Below are positions 5,568 through 15,323 of a stretch of DNA of 64,000 nucleotides, piece by piece; the stretch's first letter is position 1; every line of letters begins with the position of its first letter. Made by a program: the position numbers and the translations under genes. The DNA is taken from contig NZ_JALJEJ010000003.1 in the NCBI RefSeq assembly GCF_022953055.1, positions 124,001 through 188,000 of the forward strand, read 5' to 3'. The notes beneath the pieces are model-generated. The model was given only the letters and a program-made list of their open reading frames with translations. It had not been told where the DNA came from and did not search any database. This stretch comes from Mucilaginibacter straminoryzae (lineage in GTDB: Bacteria > Bacteroidota > Bacteroidia > Sphingobacteriales > Sphingobacteriaceae).

Positions 5568-6644
5568 TCAGGAAAGCGTAAGGCCAAGGTTAACGGTAAA
5601 ATGGTTATCCTGGTTGGTGATCAACAGCTCGTACCGGGACGGGTAAAGAATATCCAGTCGCCGTTTTACATTTGCCAACCCGATGCCCGAAGCGCGGTCT
5701 TTTGATTCATCGGCTTTGTTGACCGTATTTACCACGTTGAACTGAAGTTTCTTTTTCTCGTTATCCGCTGCAAGCGATATCAGGATAACCGGGTTCTCTA
5801 TCAGTCCGGTGCCATGTTTAAAAGCGTTTTCGACAAAGGGTATCAGCAACATCGGCTCTATCATAAACGATTGGATATCGCCCGTAATATTGATACGGAC
5901 GGTTACATTACTTCCGAAACGCAATTTTTGTAGACTGATATAGCTTTTCAGGTAATCTACTTCTTTCGGTAGCGGAACTTTATTATCGTCACTTTCATAG
6001 AGCATATACCGCATCAGGTGTGATAAGCTGATGATGGCCGGTTCCAGGTCGTCAGATTTCTTCCGCGCGAGGGAGGTCAGATTATTCAGTACGTTAAAGA
6101 TAAAGTGCGGGCTGATTTGCGACCGCAGAAAATTGAGTTCTGTTTGTAAATGGACATTCTCGCGCTCTTTCAGCAGCTCCTGCCTGGCGATGTTGTCTAT
6201 AATAATGCGGTAACAGAAACTACAAAGTATTGCCAACAAAGGAGCGAATGCCGGATAGATATCAAACGGGCGAACCCTCGGCGGCCCGTAACCATGTGGT
6301 TCATCCGGACGCTTTTGATTATGTGGGGGACGGAACTCGTTACGATGGGCATAAGGAGAAGTAAAGAAGTACCAAAATAATACATAGGATGAAAGCAGGA
6401 TCACTAAGGTAAAAAGGTACCAGTAAATTCCCTTTGAGCGGATTAGCGGATATACGAAATAGGTATGCGCATAAAAGATAACCAATAGGAAGAAGTTGTT
6501 TAATACGATGTTCTTCAGAAAACGGTAGTGCATATCGGCGGGCATCCCACCCCTGTTGCTCAGAAAAGGGAGTACCAGCAGCAAAAACCAGATCAATACC
6601 GGAACGGCATTATACAGCCACCGCTTTTCTATCAGTTTTTTCAT
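5568..6644 (-). CDS. LytS-type sensor histidine kinase (His_kinase PF06580)
   Basis: The 358-residue protein has about four membrane segments in its first 150 residues, interrupted by a Pro/His/Arg-rich loop near residues 102-127. A short coiled-coil linker leads to the LytS-family phosphoacceptor motif (RSQISPHFIFNVLNN, His180). The ATPase domain keeps the N-box (FVENAFKHG) and the G-box (GIGLANVKRRL). It is therefore intact and should phosphorylate a LytTR-type regulator. No regulator is adjacent on the same strand; the closest is at 9131 on the opposite strand. The first 82 codons and about 156 bp of upstream DNA are duplicated at 8286-8685. Confidence 0.92.
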   Translation of the reverse strand: MKKLIEKRWLYNAVPVLIWFLLLVLPFLSNRGGMPADMHYRFLKNIVLNNFFLLVIFYAHTYFVYPLIRSKGIYWYLFTLVILLSSYVLFWYFFTSPYAHRNEFRPPHNQKRPDEPHGYGPPRVRPFDIYPAFAPLLAILCSFCYRIIIDNIARQELLKERENVHLQTELNFLRSQISPHFIFNVLNNLTSLARKKSDDLEPAIISLSHLMRYMLYESDDNKVPLPKEVDYLKSYISLQKLRFGSNVTVRINITGDIQSFMIEPMLLIPFVENAFKHGTGLIENPVILISLAADNEKKKLQFNVVNTVNKADESKDRASGIGLANVKRRLDILYPSRYELLITNQDNHFTVNLGLTLS

Positions 6645-6800
6645 CAGGGCAAATAAAGTTACAAAATATCAGTGGGCAATTAACAATGAGATAAAGCGGG
6701 CGATTGTGGCGACGACACGGTGTTTTACAAGAACGTATATGCTTCTTTGTCTACACATAATCGCCGGACGTCGATTAATTACCAGGCCTTTATAAGGTTT
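6399..6800. repeat. Direct repeat copy A: 5' region of the kinase gene plus upstream DNA
   Basis: This segment covers the first 82 codons of the LytS-type kinase and its upstream region. It recurs in the same orientation at 8286-8685. By eye, the 71 bp around the kinase start codon are identical and about 14 differences occur over the last 200 bp. The two copies flank the S41 peptidase gene, so homologous recombination between them would remove that gene. Confidence 0.93.
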
Positions 6801-6848: not shown

Positions 6849-8234
6849 CTATTTTTTACCGTCAATATATTTCAAAGCACGTTGTAATGCCTGGTCGGGC
6901 GACGAATATATATCAGGAATTACGCCTCTCCAGTCGTTTTCATTCGCTCCTATATTGTAATAAAGCTTACTCGAAACCGTTAACGCCAACCCGCTGTGTG
7001 GTAGATGAGCAGTTACTATATCTCCATAGCTTTTAATTAGCCCACCAGTCTCCTCGCCAATTACAATCCCTCTTTTATAGTATTTAAAACATTGCGCAAA
7101 GTCTGATGCTGAAGAATAAGTTTCAATATTTACTAAGACTATAACCCGTCCATTAAACCGTAACGGATTGTCTCCAATATTTATCTTGTCCACATATTCC
7201 GTGTCCAATGATCCATTGGGCTTGGCAAGTAAGGCTTTATCGGCACTATCAAGCGGTTTCCCCAAACGGTGTTCAAGTAAACGCTGCTTTAACAAGGCAC
7301 TGTTTTTTTCAAGCACTTTGGCATATTGTGTAAAGGGTTTATTTAAAATGTATTGAAAAAATGCGTCACCAACGTCTGAGTCGCCCCCGCTATTATCTAT
7401 TAAATTAATTATAAGATTTTGGACATGTCTTTCTTTTATTACCGTAAACGCTGAGTCGGTAAAGGCCTTAAACCCATCCCACTCAAAGCTTTTAAAATCA
7501 ATAACTGCTGTTTGATTGTTATTCAAGAGCCGAAGTGAATAAACAGGATCAGAATGTACATTGCCATCGGCTTGATTTTTAGCCAATTCATCAAGGATGT
7601 TTTTACGTATACCTTTTAAAGTAATGTCTTTAACAATGCCGTTGTGTTTGTACTTAACGTGATAGAGACCATTTGCTTTATAAAGCGCTTCAAGATAAAA
7701 ATAAAAGCGCGTTGCACCGAACTCCGCTCGGAATAGACGGCTTTCGCCTGTATTTAAGTCTATAATATCGTTTACTATTTTTTGAGCAGAAATATTATTT
7801 ATACTGATGATCTCAGCACCGGTAGGCAATGCCGTCTTAATTCCTTTGTAGGGTCCTAAACAATTAATAAAGGGCCTTTTCGTCGATAACTTAACATTGT
7901 ATGGAAGAATGATTGGATTAAGGCTATCATAAAATTGCATGATATGAATATCGGTATGGCCATCATCCAATTTTCCAAGCAACGGCGCTATTCGTAAGTA
8001 AAAATCCATCTTATCTAAATTTCTATTGAGATGGCTTTTGACACGGAAAACGTCTTTAAAAAAGGAAGCTTTTGGATACCTATAAAAAGGATTAGGATGG
8101 GCTTCAATTAAGTATTTTATCAAGCTATCTACATCCTGCCTCATTTCAGATGGCGAATATCTCCTTGGAGTTTGTCCCCAAATGATATTAACGAAAAAAA
8201 AATTAAGCGTTAGTATAGCAATTAGTACTTTCAT
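6849..8234 (-). CDS. S41 family (C-terminal processing protease-like) peptidase, secreted
   Basis: The frame opens at 8309, but the ATG at 8232-8234 begins a good signal peptide (MKVLIAILTL, ending near WGQT), so I take 8234 as the start, giving about 461 residues. An N-terminal helical region (SPSEMRQDVDSLI...) and a segment resembling a degenerate PDZ precede the peptidase core. The core shows LIINLIDNSGGDSDVGD and the nucleophile region ETYSSASDFA, followed by GEETGG, as in S41 serine peptidases and related tail-specific proteases. It is flanked by two copies of a kinase-gene 5' segment. No gene of its operon is visible. The peptidase fold is clear; the substrate is unknown. Confidence 0.88.
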   Translation of the reverse strand: MKVLIAILTLNFFFVNIIWGQTPRRYSPSEMRQDVDSLIKYLIEAHPNPFYRYPKASFFKDVFRVKSHLNRNLDKMDFYLRIAPLLGKLDDGHTDIHIMQFYDSLNPIILPYNVKLSTKRPFINCLGPYKGIKTALPTGAEIISINNISAQKIVNDIIDLNTGESRLFRAEFGATRFYFYLEALYKANGLYHVKYKHNGIVKDITLKGIRKNILDELAKNQADGNVHSDPVYSLRLLNNNQTAVIDFKSFEWDGFKAFTDSAFTVIKERHVQNLIINLIDNSGGDSDVGDAFFQYILNKPFTQYAKVLEKNSALLKQRLLEHRLGKPLDSADKALLAKPNGSLDTEYVDKINIGDNPLRFNGRVIVLVNIETYSSASDFAQCFKYYKRGIVIGEETGGLIKSYGDIVTAHLPHSGLALTVSSKLYYNIGANENDWRGVIPDIYSSPDQALQRALKYIDGKK

Positions 8235-8285: not shown

Positions 8286-8528
8286 GATCACCAAGATAAA
8301 AGGTACCAATAAATTCCCTTTGAGCAGATTAGCGGATATACAAAATAGGCATGCGCATAAAGATGACCAATAGGAAGAATTTGTTTAATACGATGTTCTT
8401 CAAAAACCGCTAATACATATCTGCGGGCATCCCGTCCTGTTACTCAGAAAAGGGAGTACAAGCAGCAAAAATCAGATCGATACCGGAACGGCATTATACA
8501 GCCACCGCTTTTCTATCAGTTTTTTCAT
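8286..8528 (-). pseudogene. Truncated, disrupted 5' fragment of a LytS-type kinase gene
   Basis: Reading from the ATG at 8526-8528, the first 16 codons match the intact kinase at 6644. Codon 19, Trp in the intact gene, is TGA here (8472-8474). Further indels follow and homology ends after about 80 codons, 52 bp before the S41 start. It cannot encode a kinase. Its promoter side faces the S41 gene, so transcripts starting in the duplicated upstream region would read into that gene. Confidence 0.9.
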
Positions 8529-8685
8529 CAGGGCAAATAAAGTTACAAAATATCAAAGGGCAATTAACAATGAGATAAAGCGGTCGATTCTGGCGACGAC
8601 ACGGTGTTTTAACAAGCACATATATCTGTCTTTGTCGACACATAATTGCCAGATGTCGATTAATTACCAGGCCTTTATAAGGTTT
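8286..8685. repeat. Direct repeat copy B of the kinase 5' region
   Basis: Second copy of 6399-6800 in the same orientation. Both ends are sharp: homology begins near a shared GATCAC and stops after AAGGTTT. The stretch 8235-8712 has no intact gene; it contains this repeat, the truncated kinase start within it, and 27 bp leading to the next gene. The part upstream of the kinase ATG is better preserved than the former coding part. Confidence 0.93.
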
Positions 8686-8712
8686 AAGTTAACATCGTAG
8701 TTTATACTGTTG

Positions 8713-9150
8713 ATGACTTCACAAATTAAACGTTGGCCCCTCACTTTAGATGAAGAAGCTGAGTACATTTGTGCGTGTATAACACAATATCAAAAGTATT
8801 ACCAGGGCATTAGTATAAAGCTCAATGCTAATATTGCGTCAAGCTGTAAAAGTATTGAACATGATTTACTATGGCCGCTGCTCGAAGATGCCTTCACCTG
8901 CGGTATCTATGGTGTTAAGGACCCATCTGTTATTTTTGATATAGAAACGCAGGAAAGCAAGCTGATATTCAGTTTACGGTATAAGTATGACAAGCATAGG
9001 CGCGACGAACGTACGGCTGTTACTTTTCTTAAATTTAAAGAAAAGCTTGAAACTAGTTACCCTGGCCGGTTTGTATTGTGCCGTAAATACCAGCAAGATG
9101 TTTATCACCTCCTCTTAATTCTGAACTGTTATGCGAACTATTATTATTGA
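8713..9150 (+). CDS. Degenerate LytS-kinase ATPase-domain remnant, regulator-linked
   Basis: This 145-residue protein (ATG 8713; a TTG sits just before it) has no membrane segment and no phosphoacceptor motif. Along its whole length it aligns by eye with the C-terminal half of the LytS kinase at 5568-6644: LTLDEEAEYICACI against VPLPKEVDYLKSYI, IEHDLLWPLLEDAFTCG against IEPMLLIPFVENAFKHG, and KEKLETSYPGRF against KRRLDILYPSRY. The N-box Asn is Asp, the following KHG is lost, and the GIGLANV loop is replaced by AVTFLKF, so ATP binding is unlikely. It overlaps the LytTR regulator by 20 bp, implying translational coupling. It may be a pseudokinase partner of the regulator or a decaying gene; the uninterrupted frame favours the former. 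Confidence 0.75.
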   Translation: MTSQIKRWPLTLDEEAEYICACITQYQKYYQGISIKLNANIASSCKSIEHDLLWPLLEDAFTCGIYGVKDPSVIFDIETQESKLIFSLRYKYDKHRRDERTAVTFLKFKEKLETSYPGRFVLCRKYQQDVYHLLLILNCYANYYY

Positions 9151-9853
9151 CGACGAACCCTTAGCGCTGGAGTTACTGGCTGATAACATCCGTAATGTAG
9201 ACGGCTTAGAACTGGTAGGTGAATTTACCAATGCATCTACCGCTGCCCAATTTCTAACCGCTGAAAAAGTTGACCTGATCTTCTGCGACATACAAATGCC
9301 GGGAATAAACGGCATTCAATTGGTTAAAAGTTTAACCAGGAAACCTTTGGTGGTATTTGTAACCGCCTACCAGGAGTTTGCTATTGATGGTTTTGAACTT
9401 GATGTGATCGACTACCTTTTGAAACCCGTCGCTACAGAGCGTTTTTTGAAAGCCTGCAATAAAGCGCTGCAATTACATCATCTCCAAAAACAGTCGGCGC
9501 CCCCTATCGCAACACCTGATGGTGATCGCAAACACTTGTTCGTTTATGCAGACTACAATCTGATCAAGATCCGTCATCAGGATATTATTTACATCGAAGG
9601 CGTTAAGGATTATGTGAAACTGCATGTGCAAAACCTGCCTAAACCGGTGCTTACCAGAATCACCTTTAAGGCGCTGGAAGAACAATTGCCCGCACATGAA
9701 TTCTTCAGGGTGCATAAATCATATCTGGTCAATGTAGAGCATGTGCAATCTGTCCGCCGGGGCATGATCAAACTGACAGCAGATACTGTCCCTTATAGCG
9801 ATAACTATAGGGAGAACGTCGATAGAATGACGGGGAAAAGCGACGCTATTTAA
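9131..9853 (+). CDS. LytTR-family response regulator
   Basis: The 240-residue protein has a receiver domain with the acidic pair D7-D8, phosphoacceptor D53 (FCDIQMPG), the conserved Thr in VTAY and Lys in YLLKP. A LytTR DNA-binding domain follows at about residues 135-235 (IIYIEGVKDYVKLH, then FFRVHKSYLVNVEHV). All key receiver residues are present. Its start lies within the upstream degenerate kinase gene. The TonB receptor gene begins 100 bp downstream on the same strand, making it a plausible target. The intact kinase at 5568-6644 is the nearest candidate partner. Confidence 0.94.
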   Translation: MRTIIIDDEPLALELLADNIRNVDGLELVGEFTNASTAAQFLTAEKVDLIFCDIQMPGINGIQLVKSLTRKPLVVFVTAYQEFAIDGFELDVIDYLLKPVATERFLKACNKALQLHHLQKQSAPPIATPDGDRKHLFVYADYNLIKIRHQDIIYIEGVKDYVKLHVQNLPKPVLTRITFKALEEQLPAHEFFRVHKSYLVNVEHVQSVRRGMIKLTADTVPYSDNYRENVDRMTGKSDAI

Positions 9854-9953
9854 CAATTTTAACATTTTCGTCGACATTGTTCGGCCGATCATCTCATTTA
9901 TTTTTCATCTACGTTGGGCTAATGCACCTTTGAAGCAAAGCCCCTAAGCATTG

Positions 9954-12746
9954 ATGAAAAAATCTTTAATACCCCTATTACTTTTCACCATTGTTCTACA
10001 CTGTACTGCGCAGGCGCAGCACACCAAAAGGCTGCTAAAAAAATCCATCATCAACCATTTCTTTACCTGTACCTTGGATAAGATGTTCGATACCATTTCG
10101 GTAGCGTATCAGATCCCCATCTTCTTCGAGCGTGAGCAGATACAGAAAATGGATGTGGCCAACCACTTTTTCGAAGAATCGCTGGAAGATGTTTTCAAGT
10201 ACGTTTGTAAAGAGAATAACCTGCAGTACTGGATAGAAAACGACGGTACAATCTACATCCTTCAAAAACCTGACGACCTGCCCCGCCTTCGCCAGCAGAA
10301 CCAACTGAAAAAAACGGGCGGCCTGGTAAAACCAAAGCATTTAGAGCTTGCTGTGAATCCGCCCACGCGGCATCATTTTGCTATTCATGGTAAGGTTTCA
10401 GATCAAAACACGGGTGAGGCCCTGCCCGGAGCCACGGTTAAAATCAGGTTTACAGACTTAAGCACCATGACCAATACAGATGGTAGCTTCTCTATCCTGA
10501 ATGTACCTTCTGATACGGTGTCGGTGGAAGTTTCCTTCATCGGTTATCAGAAAGACATATTCCGGCTCAACAGTAAGAATATAGATAGCGCGTTGGTGTT
10601 TGCGCTGTTCCCTACGATGAACGCGCTGAACGAGGTGGAGATTACCGATAAAAAGACAGGCGTATTGAATACCGACAGCAAAAAAGTGAGCGTTTTACAA
10701 TTAAACCCAACTGCGCTGGACAAGCTGCCGAATATTGGTGAACGCGATGTAATGCGTGCATTTCAGCTGATGCCGGGCGTAAGCGCCACTAACGAATCTT
10801 CTTCCGGCGCTTATGTACGTGGTGGCACGCCAGACCAGAACCTGGTCACCTTTGATGGCTTTACCGTTTACCAGGTAGACCACCTTTACGGATTTTTCAG
10901 CGCCTTCAACAGTAATGCTGTCCGCGACGTAGACATGTACAAAGGCGGCTTTTCTTCCAAGTACGGCGGTCGTTTATCCAGTGTTACCGAGATTAGGGGT
11001 AAAGACGGCAACAAGATCGAAACCAATATCGGCGGCGACCTTAGCTTGTTAAGCACCAATATCTATGCAGAATCGCCCATCGGGAGCAAGTCATCTGCTT
11101 TAATTGCCTTCCGGAGGTCATATCAGGGGCCTTTTTACGACAAGATTTTCGGACAATTCAATAGCAGTGCTACTACGGCTATCCCAAGTGGCAGAGGCGG
11201 CTTCGGCGGACGTGGAGGGCCGGGCGGCGGCTTCGGAAATCAAACTACACCATCTTCTTACTTTTATGACATCAACGCAAAATACGTTTACGCCCTTTCG
11301 CCCAAAAACACACTGTCCGTAAGTTACTATAACGGGCACGATAACGTGGACAATAGCCGCGAGATGAATATCCCCGCATTTGGAACTGCCAGCAGCAGCG
11401 ATATAAAAATCAACGATAAAACCATATCCGGTAATACAGGTGCGGCTCTGAAATTGACAAGTACTGTTGCCAAAAACCTGACAAACAATACCATCCTAAG
11501 TTATTCTGGATTTTTCAGCGACCGCGACCGTACCAATACGGGCAACGTAACAGACAGTGGCACTACCACCACCATCAATAGCGGTACGCTGGAAAAAAAT
11601 CGCCTCCGCGACCTTAGCATTAAATCTGACTGGGAATGGCAGGCAACCTCTAAAGTGAAATTTCTTTATGGCGCCTTTGGTTCAAACCTTAACATCAAGT
11701 ATAACTATACGCAGAACGATACCAGTCAGTTAATCAACAAGAACAACACTGGTACCATTGGCGGCGTGTATACCGAAGCGGAAATAGAACCGAATGATAA
11801 ATTACATATTCAGCCGGGTTTGCGCAGTACCTACTTCTCGCCCGACGGTAAAATGTATTTTGAACCCCGCTTAAATTTAACCTACCATTTTACCGATGAA
11901 TTTAACCTGAAAGGTGCAACCGGACGATTTTATCAGTTCACCAAACAGGTAGTGCGCGAAGATGTCGCTGGCGGCGACCGCAATTTCTGGGTGCTGGCAA
12001 ATAACAGCACTATCCCGGTGGCTTCTGCAAATCACTTTATTGCCGGCTTTAATTACGAAACGCGCGAGTTCCTGTTCGATGTGGAAGCCTATTACAAGAA
12101 GTTGGATAAGATTACTGAATATTCCATCCGGCAGGAAGGCTTTGCAGGCGGCGGAATGCCATTTCGCAACAATGGAGGAACGGCCACATTAACTGAAGAT
12201 TTTTACAATGGACGCGGTTTTGCTAAAGGCATTGAATTTATGCTTCAAAAGAAAATGGGCAAATATACCGGTTGGATCAGTTACACGCTTGCCCAGGCCA
12301 AGAATCAATATGATGTATACGGCGATCAGTACTTTTCTGCACCGCAGGATATTACCCACGAAGTGAAATCCATCAACATGTACCACTTACAACGGTGGAG
12401 TTTCTCAGCCCTGTTTATCGCCAGTACCGGGCACCCCTACACCGCTCCGCTGGGTACTTACAGTGTTACCACGCTCGACGGTAACAAGGTCACCTATCTT
12501 ACCATCAGCGCAAAGAACGGCGAAAGATTGCCGGCCTACCACCGCCTGGATTTATCTGCCACTTATGACCTATTAAAGATAGACGGTCATAAAGTAGGTA
12601 GTATCGGCTTGTCGCTGTTCAATGTGTATAATCACGTTAACTCGTGGTATAACGAGTACTATATCCGCAACAACCAGGTAACTACTACCAACGTTAAATA
12701 CCTTGGCTTTACCCCTAACATTACCCTTAGTTTGAAATGGAAATAA
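9954..12746 (+). CDS. TonB-dependent receptor with N-terminal STN domain
   Basis: The 930-residue protein (ATG 9954, preceded by an in-frame TTG) has a signal peptide, then an STN/secretin-like domain at about residues 28-105 (FDTISVAYQIPIFFE, then VFKYVCKENNLQYWI). A carboxypeptidase-regulatory-like domain follows (GKVSDQNTGEALPGATV, about 145-225), then a plug (VMRAFQLMPGVSATNE, YVRGGTPDQNLVTFDG) and a barrel ending in an aromatic-rich strand (LGFTPNITLSLKWK). A Gly-rich insert (SGRGGFGGRGGPGGG) interrupts the early barrel. STN domains often signal to FecR-type anti-sigma factors, but none is nearby; the LytTR regulator directly upstream is the visible regulatory candidate. The overlapping next gene is its likely lipoprotein partner. 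Confidence 0.93.
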   Translation: MKKSLIPLLLFTIVLHCTAQAQHTKRLLKKSIINHFFTCTLDKMFDTISVAYQIPIFFEREQIQKMDVANHFFEESLEDVFKYVCKENNLQYWIENDGTIYILQKPDDLPRLRQQNQLKKTGGLVKPKHLELAVNPPTRHHFAIHGKVSDQNTGEALPGATVKIRFTDLSTMTNTDGSFSILNVPSDTVSVEVSFIGYQKDIFRLNSKNIDSALVFALFPTMNALNEVEITDKKTGVLNTDSKKVSVLQLNPTALDKLPNIGERDVMRAFQLMPGVSATNESSSGAYVRGGTPDQNLVTFDGFTVYQVDHLYGFFSAFNSNAVRDVDMYKGGFSSKYGGRLSSVTEIRGKDGNKIETNIGGDLSLLSTNIYAESPIGSKSSALIAFRRSYQGPFYDKIFGQFNSSATTAIPSGRGGFGGRGGPGGGFGNQTTPSSYFYDINAKYVYALSPKNTLSVSYYNGHDNVDNSREMNIPAFGTASSSDIKINDKTISGNTGAALKLTSTVAKNLTNNTILSYSGFFSDRDRTNTGNVTDSGTTTTINSGTLEKNRLRDLSIKSDWEWQATSKVKFLYGAFGSNLNIKYNYTQNDTSQLINKNNTGTIGGVYTEAEIEPNDKLHIQPGLRSTYFSPDGKMYFEPRLNLTYHFTDEFNLKGATGRFYQFTKQVVREDVAGGDRNFWVLANNSTIPVASANHFIAGFNYETREFLFDVEAYYKKLDKITEYSIRQEGFAGGGMPFRNNGGTATLTEDFYNGRGFAKGIEFMLQKKMGKYTGWISYTLAQAKNQYDVYGDQYFSAPQDITHEVKSINMYHLQRWSFSALFIASTGHPYTAPLGTYSVTTLDGNKVTYLTISAKNGERLPAYHRLDLSATYDLLKIDGHKVGSIGLSLFNVYNHVNSWYNEYYIRNNQVTTTNVKYLGFTPNITLSLKWK

Positions 12747-13540
12747 GCAGAAACAGATTAATGTGCTTTTTAACAGCAATGATAGCGCTGATCGCTTCCT
12801 GCAAAAAAGAGAATACGGTTGATAACGCCACCAAGCCGGTCGTGATCGGCTATCTGATTCCCGGGCAAAGCATCAGTTTAAGAGTATATTCACAAAAAGG
12901 GCTTTCAGACACCGCTACGTATGGAACGCCTATTACCGGATTGACCCCATCTGTTTCTGACGGAAGCAAAACCGTGCAGCTTACCGATTCGGGAAACGGC
13001 ATTTATACTTATAACGATCTTTCTTTCGTCAGCAGCGGCAAAACCTATCAGTTAAAATTCACCTATAATTCACTGCCTGTAACGGCAACTACATCGGTAC
13101 CTTCTAAGCCGGTTGGTTTCACGGCAAGTAAAACTTTAATTAATCTACCAACGGGGTCAACTATCAGTCCGCAAGCCACAGATTCTATTGCTGTTACATT
13201 TAAATGGAAAAATCCCGACTCGCTGTATCATGTAATTGTTTTTAAGAATGATGATAGCAGTCCGTTTAATATTCATCCGCAATTTAATGCAGCTGTTAAT
13301 TTTACCATCAACGCCAAAAAAGCAGAATATTACAATGTGTACTATCGTACGTTTAACTACATCGGCATTTACAGGGCTATCTTATGGAGTGTCAGCGAAG
13401 ACTATATTAATATGCTGAAAACCAATGCCAATACCTCTTCTCAACGATTAACCGACGCCCCCACCAATATTATAAATGGTTACGGCATTTTTTCGGGCAT
13501 GCAGTCAGATACCATCAAGCTGCAACTCACGCAGTATTAG
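12737..13540 (+). CDS. DUF4249-like lipoprotein partner of the TonB receptor
   Basis: The 267-residue protein has a short hydrophobic N-terminus ending in a lipobox (LIASC, Cys22), so it should be a lipoprotein. The remainder is a beta-rich domain resembling the DUF4249 family: KPVVIGYLIPGQSISLRVYSQ near the start and a YNDLSFVSSGKTYQLKF block later. DUF4249 genes usually follow TonB-dependent receptor genes in Bacteroidota, and here it overlaps the receptor by 10 bp. ATG 12761 is an alternative start that would avoid the overlap and keep the lipobox. Function is unknown; an outer-membrane accessory to the receptor is inferred from context. Confidence 0.75.
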   Translation: MEISRNRLMCFLTAMIALIASCKKENTVDNATKPVVIGYLIPGQSISLRVYSQKGLSDTATYGTPITGLTPSVSDGSKTVQLTDSGNGIYTYNDLSFVSSGKTYQLKFTYNSLPVTATTSVPSKPVGFTASKTLINLPTGSTISPQATDSIAVTFKWKNPDSLYHVIVFKNDDSSPFNIHPQFNAAVNFTINAKKAEYYNVYYRTFNYIGIYRAILWSVSEDYINMLKTNANTSSQRLTDAPTNIINGYGIFSGMQSDTIKLQLTQY

Positions 13541-13655: not shown

Positions 13656-15323
13656 ATGAAGGTTCTATTTCTGTCCGGCGCTTTACTGCTGTCGGCTTTT
13701 TTAACTTTTGCCCAACCCGCGGCAACCATTACTTATAATGTTAAATATCATGGTAAAGAACTTCCAGACAGCCGGATCAACCTGGTAATTAAAGGCGATA
13801 AGGCCCACATAGAAAAAGTTGCAGAGCCTAATGCAAAAGAACAGCTGTACCTGGATTACGCAAAGAAACAAACCATGCAGGTGCTTACCTTGCCGGAAAA
13901 TAAGCACGTGACCCAGCTAAAAGATTTTAAAGATTACGAACAACCCCAACTACTGCCGGATACCGCTACCATTTTAGGTTATCCCTGTAAAAAGGCTAAA
14001 GTGATTATCCGTTCGAACACTATCGAAGTATGGTATACCAATGCACCGCCGTTTAAAGGTACCCCAAGCATCGGCGTAACACCTGGGTTAGGGTTAGTAT
14101 TAAAAACCGTAAGAAACGGTGAAATGGAAGTAACGGCTTCAGAAATAAAAAAGGGCGATGGAAAAAGTACAACCCTGCACTGGCCTACCGCAGCCGAAAT
14201 GGGGCCGGTTGTTGATGCCGCTACCTACAACCAACAGGTAATAGAAAGCCGGTTTAAAACGGTAACTGTTTTTAATAAAGAGCAGCTTTCTTTCGGTTAT
14301 GATAAACCCAACCCCGCCGGCGAGCAAGCTAATGTTACCTATCATTACGCTGGCGGCACCGTGATCCTCAAAAAGATCAAGTTGCCCGATTACGTCGCAG
14401 GAACGCAACTGTTTGCCGAACTTTCACAATACTCCAACGGCGATGCTTACGACCGTACCGGTTCTGTATTCATGATCCCTTTAGATAAAAAGCAATCTTT
14501 TTTAGATGGCTTGCAAAAGGGTGTTAAAGCTTTGCCCGTTTATAAAAATAAATACCAGGGTGTGGTAGAAACTACTGATTACCTGCCCCCACTGGAACTG
14601 TTGCGGTTCTTCACGCCTTTCGGTATCAACAAGTATAACAAGGCATCAAACATAAAGGGGTACAACTGGGCAGATTCGGCAGTGTTCAGGCAGGATATTA
14701 CCGAATTACAGCCCCGTTTGCAGGGCGAAGTATGGATCGGGGTGTTTATTGGGAATTATGATAAAGGTGGCCATATTGTTAGTTTACGGTTGAAATACTA
14801 TCCCGGCGATGGCGAAGGGAACCAAAAACCGGGGCAGTTTGTGCAGCCAATATTTAATACGACGAACCTAATGGAAATGGCCGGGCAAGAGTACGGAACC
14901 ATGTTCGACCATGATTCGCTAACCGTGACCGTGAACATCCCGAAAGGTGTTAAGAACCTGCAGATGAGGTATATTACTACTGGGCACGGCGGATGGGGTG
15001 GCGGCGACGAATTTAACCAGAAACTGAATGAAATATTTGTAGACGACAAACGCGTTTACCATTTTATTCCCTGGCGCACAGACTGCGGCACTTATCGCCT
15101 GCTAAACCCTTCCTCGGGAAATTTTGGCAATGGACAGTCATCATCAGATCTTAGTCGCTCCAACTGGTGCCCGGGCAGTCTCACTCCTCCCGTATATATT
15201 CCGTTGCCAGACTTGCAACCAGGCGTTCACACCTTTAAAGTGGCCATACCACTCGGACAACGGGAAGGTACGGCGTTCAGCTCATGGAATGTTTCGGGAT
15301 GTTTGATCGGAATGATGGATTGA
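13656..15323 (+). CDS. Peptide-N-glycosidase F homologue with N-terminal GLPGLI-like extension
   Basis: The 555-residue protein has a signal peptide (MKVLFLSGALLLSAFL) and then about 170 residues resembling GLPGLI/DUF4412 beta-rich domains (ITYNVKYHGK, GYPCKKAKV, EVWYT, PGLGLVLKTV). From about residue 200 it resembles PNGase F, which cleaves N-glycans from asparagine. By hand alignment the catalytic Asp (Asp60 of mature Flavobacterium PNGase F) matches D266 in DAYDRTG, and Glu206 matches E452 in GGGDEFN. The segments WRTDCGTYRLLN, SSSDLSRSNWCPG and a C-terminal FSSWNVSG also fit. The enzyme would act in the periplasm or outside on glycoproteins. It is monocistronic; no glycosidase cluster surrounds it. 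Confidence 0.88.
   Translation: MKVLFLSGALLLSAFLTFAQPAATITYNVKYHGKELPDSRINLVIKGDKAHIEKVAEPNAKEQLYLDYAKKQTMQVLTLPENKHVTQLKDFKDYEQPQLLPDTATILGYPCKKAKVIIRSNTIEVWYTNAPPFKGTPSIGVTPGLGLVLKTVRNGEMEVTASEIKKGDGKSTTLHWPTAAEMGPVVDAATYNQQVIESRFKTVTVFNKEQLSFGYDKPNPAGEQANVTYHYAGGTVILKKIKLPDYVAGTQLFAELSQYSNGDAYDRTGSVFMIPLDKKQSFLDGLQKGVKALPVYKNKYQGVVETTDYLPPLELLRFFTPFGINKYNKASNIKGYNWADSAVFRQDITELQPRLQGEVWIGVFIGNYDKGGHIVSLRLKYYPGDGEGNQKPGQFVQPIFNTTNLMEMAGQEYGTMFDHDSLTVTVNIPKGVKNLQMRYITTGHGGWGGGDEFNQKLNEIFVDDKRVYHFIPWRTDCGTYRLLNPSSGNFGNGQSSSDLSRSNWCPGSLTPPVYIPLPDLQPGVHTFKVAIPLGQREGTAFSSWNVSGCLIGMMD

Follow-up and report, generated by a model that had tools for sequence, protein, structure and literature searches.

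A conserved stand-alone pseudo-ATPase encoded beside a LytTR regulator in Mucilaginibacter, with a probable non-enzymatic role in two-component signalling

We analysed a two-component locus of Mucilaginibacter straminoryzae in which a small gene, here called mini, precedes the gene for a LytTR response regulator. Positions are those of the window, by which we mean the whole 64,000-nucleotide stretch of DNA that was analysed. The locus carries the following features:

5568..6644, minus strand: LytS-type sensor histidine kinase of 358 amino acids, the divergent partner gene (PF06580; catalytic motifs intact)
6688..6779, plus strand: kinase-side copies of the two candidate operator sites, site 1 (6688/6709) and site 2 (6750/6771), placed by alignment
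6852..8234, minus strand: S41 peptidase gene between kinase and mini, found in this species only and outside the proposed mechanism
8298..8525, minus strand: relic of the kinase N-terminus, part of a duplicated segment; the fragment matches kinase codons 56-78 (L092)
8526..8712, strand unassigned: mini-side copy of the kinase/mini intergenic region, recognised from repeats D1/D2 and by alignment
8572..8600, plus strand: candidate LytTR-type operator site 1, GAGATAAA and GCGACGAC with a 21-bp period, common to most loci without mini
8635..8664, plus strand: candidate LytTR-type operator site 2, TCGACACAT and TCGATTAAT, a direct repeat with a 21-bp period
8713..9150, plus strand: mini, a stand-alone pseudo-ATPase of 145 amino acids resembling a histidine-kinase CA domain (ORF, five same-locus homologues, dN/dS, predicted fold)
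9131..9853, plus strand: LytTR response regulator of 240 amino acids (PF00072, PF04397; orthologues)
9951..12746, plus strand: TonB-dependent receptor with an N-terminal FecR_C-like/STN-type region, 3′ of the regulator, an order shared with other species
12737..13540, plus strand: DUF4249 protein, 3′ of the receptor

The mini frame runs unbroken from an ATG at 8713 to a stop codon at 9148-9150, with a TTG at 8710 as a possible alternative start, and it overlaps the LytTR gene, which starts at 9131, by exactly 20 bp. The intact 145-codon frame and the 20-bp overlap had both been described in a first-pass annotation of this DNA, and both are seen in the ORF coordinates. The TonB-dependent receptor is the likely target of the two-component system. 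Further downstream, 3′ of the DUF4249 gene, the window encodes a PNGase F-like protein with N-glycanase N and C domains (13656-15323).

The region between kinase and mini has been rearranged in this species. A direct duplication of 389 bp, in which 6412-6800 corresponds to 8298-8685 at about 87-95% identity, flanks a 1.5-kb insert carrying the S41 peptidase gene, and this insert is absent from all five other loci that carry mini. Through the duplication, the kinase and mini of the window each hold a copy of a promoter/intergenic region that they once shared.

Searches of Pfam and NCBIfam gave no family match for mini (no significant Pfam hit), a sequence-profile search of the PDB returned chance matches only, and a literature search on the mini locus found no papers. 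A pairwise BLASTP comparison of mini with the neighbouring kinase likewise gave no usable match; in a whole-genome search, residues 11-131 of mini matched the ATPase half of that kinase with E=2e-6 and 27% identity. In an alignment of 54 sequences, made up of six minis and 48 related kinases, mini aligns from end to end on kinase residues ~223-358, up to the last kinase residue. The end-to-end correspondence with the kinase ATPase half that had been claimed earlier is thus recovered, though BLASTP was blank.

We found that the residues with which kinases of this group bind ATP have been replaced in every mini. The N-box Asn, present in 48 of 48 kinases, is Asp in all six minis, and the equally invariant G1-box Asn (48/48) is Tyr in all six. 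The G2 GxG motif occurs in 48/48 kinases and 0/6 minis, and the Asn that follows it in all 48 kinases is Lys or Arg in minis. The phospho-His of the H-box is likewise universal among the 48 kinases, and the whole H-box region is absent from 6/6 minis. Mini therefore lacks what marks a LytS-type kinase, both the PF06580 H-box and the catalytic N, G1 and G2 boxes. Other fold residues are retained, among them the YP motif and the N-box Gly (6/6), and the N-box Glu remains Glu in the mini of the window species. New residues (His50, Asp59, Tyr90, Glu99 and Arg100) have become invariant in or close to what was the ATP pocket. The losses of the N-box Asn, the glycine-rich loop and the His region noted in the first-pass annotation are all seen in the alignment; its 'KHG' loss has to be narrowed to K and H, because the Gly is kept in all six minis. 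Judged from these residues, mini has probably lost both ATP binding and any phosphorylating activity.

The predicted structures agree with a domain that kept its shape. AlphaFold models built from four-row alignments place both the window mini (pLDDT 84.7, pTM 0.80) and a G169-type mini (pLDDT 89.0, pTM 0.84) in the kinase-type ATPase fold, and Foldseek's top PDB hits, at probability 1.00, are histidine-kinase CA domains, ThkA and AgrC among them. By the two models and Foldseek, mini has a predicted Bergerat-type CA fold, with no membrane segment; the window model also predicts a helix from residue 99 onward, at the position that the ATP lid takes in kinases. Sequence and model together point to a Bergerat-like domain that is probably dead for ATP, and with the conserved regulator junction they support the earlier proposal that a catalytically dead ATPase fold is translated together with the regulator.

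A survey of 150 Mucilaginibacter genomes shows stand-alone homologues of mini in five other species (G170, G070, G002, G169 and G155). They are 140-141 amino acids long, contain no stops and are 34-37% identical to the window protein; nucleotide identity is about 50% in most pairs. Mini is the most divergent protein of the locus. That five other species have the ORF in the same position argues that it is not there by chance, and the LytTR-adjacent homologues that the first-pass annotation had proposed to look for thus exist, with the same synteny. In the mini loci the kinase is divergent to mini, which is followed by LytTR, the TonB receptor and DUF4249 (the G169 contig stops inside the receptor gene), and a gene for an outer-membrane protein adjoins the kinase in most of them, with the exception of G170. 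The distance from mini stop to LytTR start is an overlap of 20 bp in the window, 4 bp in G002 and 1 bp in G170, G169 and G155, and a gap of 2 bp in G070. In G155 the receptor and DUF4249 genes are mostly deleted, leaving short pieces (L051:5173-5830), while the genes for the kinase, mini and LytTR have been retained.

Outside the genus, no stand-alone copy appeared at the thresholds used in samples of 401 genomes from the family, 401 from the order and 296 from the phylum, and the other listed matches sit in longer frames. Scanning genome contigs with the mini alignment returned one locus, apparently that of G169 itself. A 204-residue frame in G016 was considered as a second mini and rejected, as it has a DHp-like half (without the His) and no adjoining LytTR. 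This soluble LytS-like protein (L149:4002-4616), in which the H-box His is Gln, the G1 Asn is Tyr, G2 is lost and the N-box is intact, appears from its sequence to be a second, separate degenerate relative of the kinases.

The orthologous divergent kinase/LytTR pair was found in 27 species, a count that takes in G064 through a partial kinase match and G112 with a split kinase, and only six of the 27 have mini. The G112 kinase lies in two frames with a break near codon 234 (L109:2342-3458), a frameshift or an assembly error. Since 21 species have the same pair without mini, mini is not needed for its basic function, and since the kinase is complete in all six mini species, mini is an addition and not a replacement. 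The gap between kinase and LytTR measures 118-207 bp across 20 loci that lack mini.

We compared the intergenic regions of the window, L047-L051 and L128-L147 for candidate operators. They contain direct repeats whose 21-bp period is close to the spacing of known LytTR operators. Site 1, of the type GmGAyAAA, lies near the kinase start in mini loci and in most loci without mini. Site 2, of the type TCTAyACAT, scores above shuffled sequences in 6/6 mini loci and 0/20 others, with p-values that are not independent because the site motifs were derived from the same sequences that were scored.

Selection on mini was estimated with a maximum-likelihood codon model in G169 and G155, which are the only pair not saturated at synonymous sites and do not include the window species. 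For this pair the dN/dS of mini is 0.28 (dN 0.16, dS 0.57), and neutrality is rejected (LRT against a ratio of 1, 20.4); the kinase and regulator of the same pair have values of 0.055 and 0.022. Compared with these, the value for mini indicates purifying selection that is looser than on its neighbours. The first-pass annotation had named a dN/dS near 1 as the mark of a decaying kinase fragment, and the closest pair gives no such value. The marks of a pseudogene, a ratio near 1 and broken frames among relatives, are both missing, all six frames being intact. We conclude that mini is a real gene and not a decaying fragment. In a simple scan for clade-specific substitutions, kinase and regulator had seven each, no more than control clades.

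In a tree of the ATPase half, the minis form one group with support 100/100. The long branch of this group falls between the divergent and the operon-type kinases, and within it the window mini has the longest branch. Because the mini branch is long, the tree does not settle descent from an operonic or a divergent kinase. A single clade of mini loci is compatible with the kinase and regulator tree (the tree that holds them together scores 0.12 log units higher, p-AU 0.50) and with the regulator tree (p-AU 0.42), and gain and loss of mini were not separated by the kinase and regulator trees. In a sister operon-type locus (L152) a full-length kinase overlaps the LytTR gene by 4 bp, exactly at the end position of mini. 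The simplest reading would be that mini is the surviving 3′ half of an operon-type LytS kinase that once lay directly upstream of LytTR, left after the divergent kinase took over.

Kinase relatives that are dead for ATP are already known. Among LytS-type kinases (PF06580 plus HATPase, LytTR-paired, in Bacteroidota), the C-terminal half aligns with mini and the 3′ half of the operon type has the gene position of mini, whereas mini lacks their membrane sensor, H-box and ATP-site residues. In ChpT the Bergerat ATPase-like domain is atypical: neither ATP nor ADP is seen in it, and extra turns of the next helix replace the ATP lid and fill the pocket (PMC3433190). The mini model resembles it in starting a helix at residue 99, at the position of the lid, a likeness read from the model without a measured superposition. 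ChpT and Spo0B, dimeric phosphotransferases that resemble histidine kinases, differ from mini in keeping a helical hairpin with the phospho-His; mini starts after the DHp domain, at ~223 of the kinase, and without this region cannot be a phosphotransferase of the ChpT/Spo0B type. Degenerate kinases of the PhyP/PhyT type in alphaproteobacteria also have a degenerate ATPase domain, and they modulate regulator phosphorylation (PMC5898713). They are, like mini, kinase homologues, but they retain both the DHp His and a sensor part anchored in the membrane, whereas mini is CA-only with no predicted membrane segment. CvnF8, a GAF-domain accessory protein, binds and stimulates its kinase (PMC13343842); like mini in the reading favoured here, it is small, has its gene alongside those of a kinase system and modulates that system, and its fold is unrelated. 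What sets mini apart is that it is CA-only, where ChpT, Spo0B and PhyT keep the phospho-His domain.

On balance we favour the reading that mini is a conserved, ATP-dead stand-alone CA domain that modulates the adjacent two-component system by non-enzymatic means. Loss of the ATP-site residues, a place beside the regulator gene and evolution as a working protein together make mini probably a non-enzymatic partner of the signalling pair, and the loss of the ATP site in a fold that was kept, at a fixed place, points to protein contact within that pair. We count in favour of a modulator that kinase, mini and regulator persist in G155 though the receptor targets are mostly gone. On the intact divergent kinase, mini might occupy the DHp helices instead of a catalytic CA domain, which would lower autophosphorylation; alternatively it might contact the LytTR receiver in the way that CA domains of kinase:regulator complexes do. 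When DesK is in complex with DesR, its CA domain contributes to contact with the regulator and docks on the DHp as well (PMC5231405). Synthesis of mini would be coupled to that of the regulator and could so fix the proportions in which kinase, modulator and regulator are present. We consider a brake on the kinase slightly more likely than docking on the regulator; we infer both the choice of partner and any inhibition.

Other explanations have to be weighed against a modulator. That mini is the leftover 3′ half of a kinase, open by chance, might be suspected from its missing catalytic motifs, its presence in only six species, its standing as the most divergent protein of the locus and the long branch of the window copy. 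It is already contradicted for the mini family as a whole, and we regard it as very improbable, because six ORFs have stayed whole at near-equal lengths despite the ~50% nucleotide identity of most pairs, neutrality is rejected and new invariant residues have been fixed around the former pocket. In 6/6 loci mini ends no more than 20 bp from the start of LytTR, as it would if mini were a leader ORF in which delivery of ribosomes to that start matters and the peptide does not. Such a leader has no need of a folded domain of 140 codons, 21 species do without it, and constraint at the amino-acid level and a confident fold prediction speak for the protein, making this account, too, an improbable one.

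The new invariant residues have a second bearing, as columns of the pocket region fixed to His50, Asp59, Tyr90 and Glu99-Arg100 go beyond mere loss and could mean that the pocket was rebuilt for another small molecule, whose bound form acts on the two-component system. We hold such a ligand sensor to be unlikely, though the best of these alternatives, given that the pocket of ChpT is simply filled by its extended helix (PMC3433190) and that mini has its predicted helix from residue 99 at the lid site. A split kinase, with mini lending the ATP-binding CA function in trans to a kinase or to another His protein, would accord with the CA-only fold. With the N-box Asn, G1 Asn and G2 glycines missing from 6/6 minis and a divergent kinase that has an intact CA domain of its own, we give this extremely little credence.

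A more specific version of the modulator reading is that mini represents a new kind of accessory protein, a CA-only pseudo-kinase that arose a single time, when an operonic LytS-type kinase was truncated following takeover by the divergent kinase, and that was acquired with its own operator of 21-bp spacing and kept in a dedicated role as brake or adaptor for the kinase/LytTR pair. We put this fuller account forward tentatively, at somewhat short of an even chance. The 21 species that have the pair without mini offer a natural comparison of its role, with and without. If a modulator is what mini is, then this conserved CA-only remnant would mean that the ATPase fold alone can serve a signalling pair non-enzymatically.
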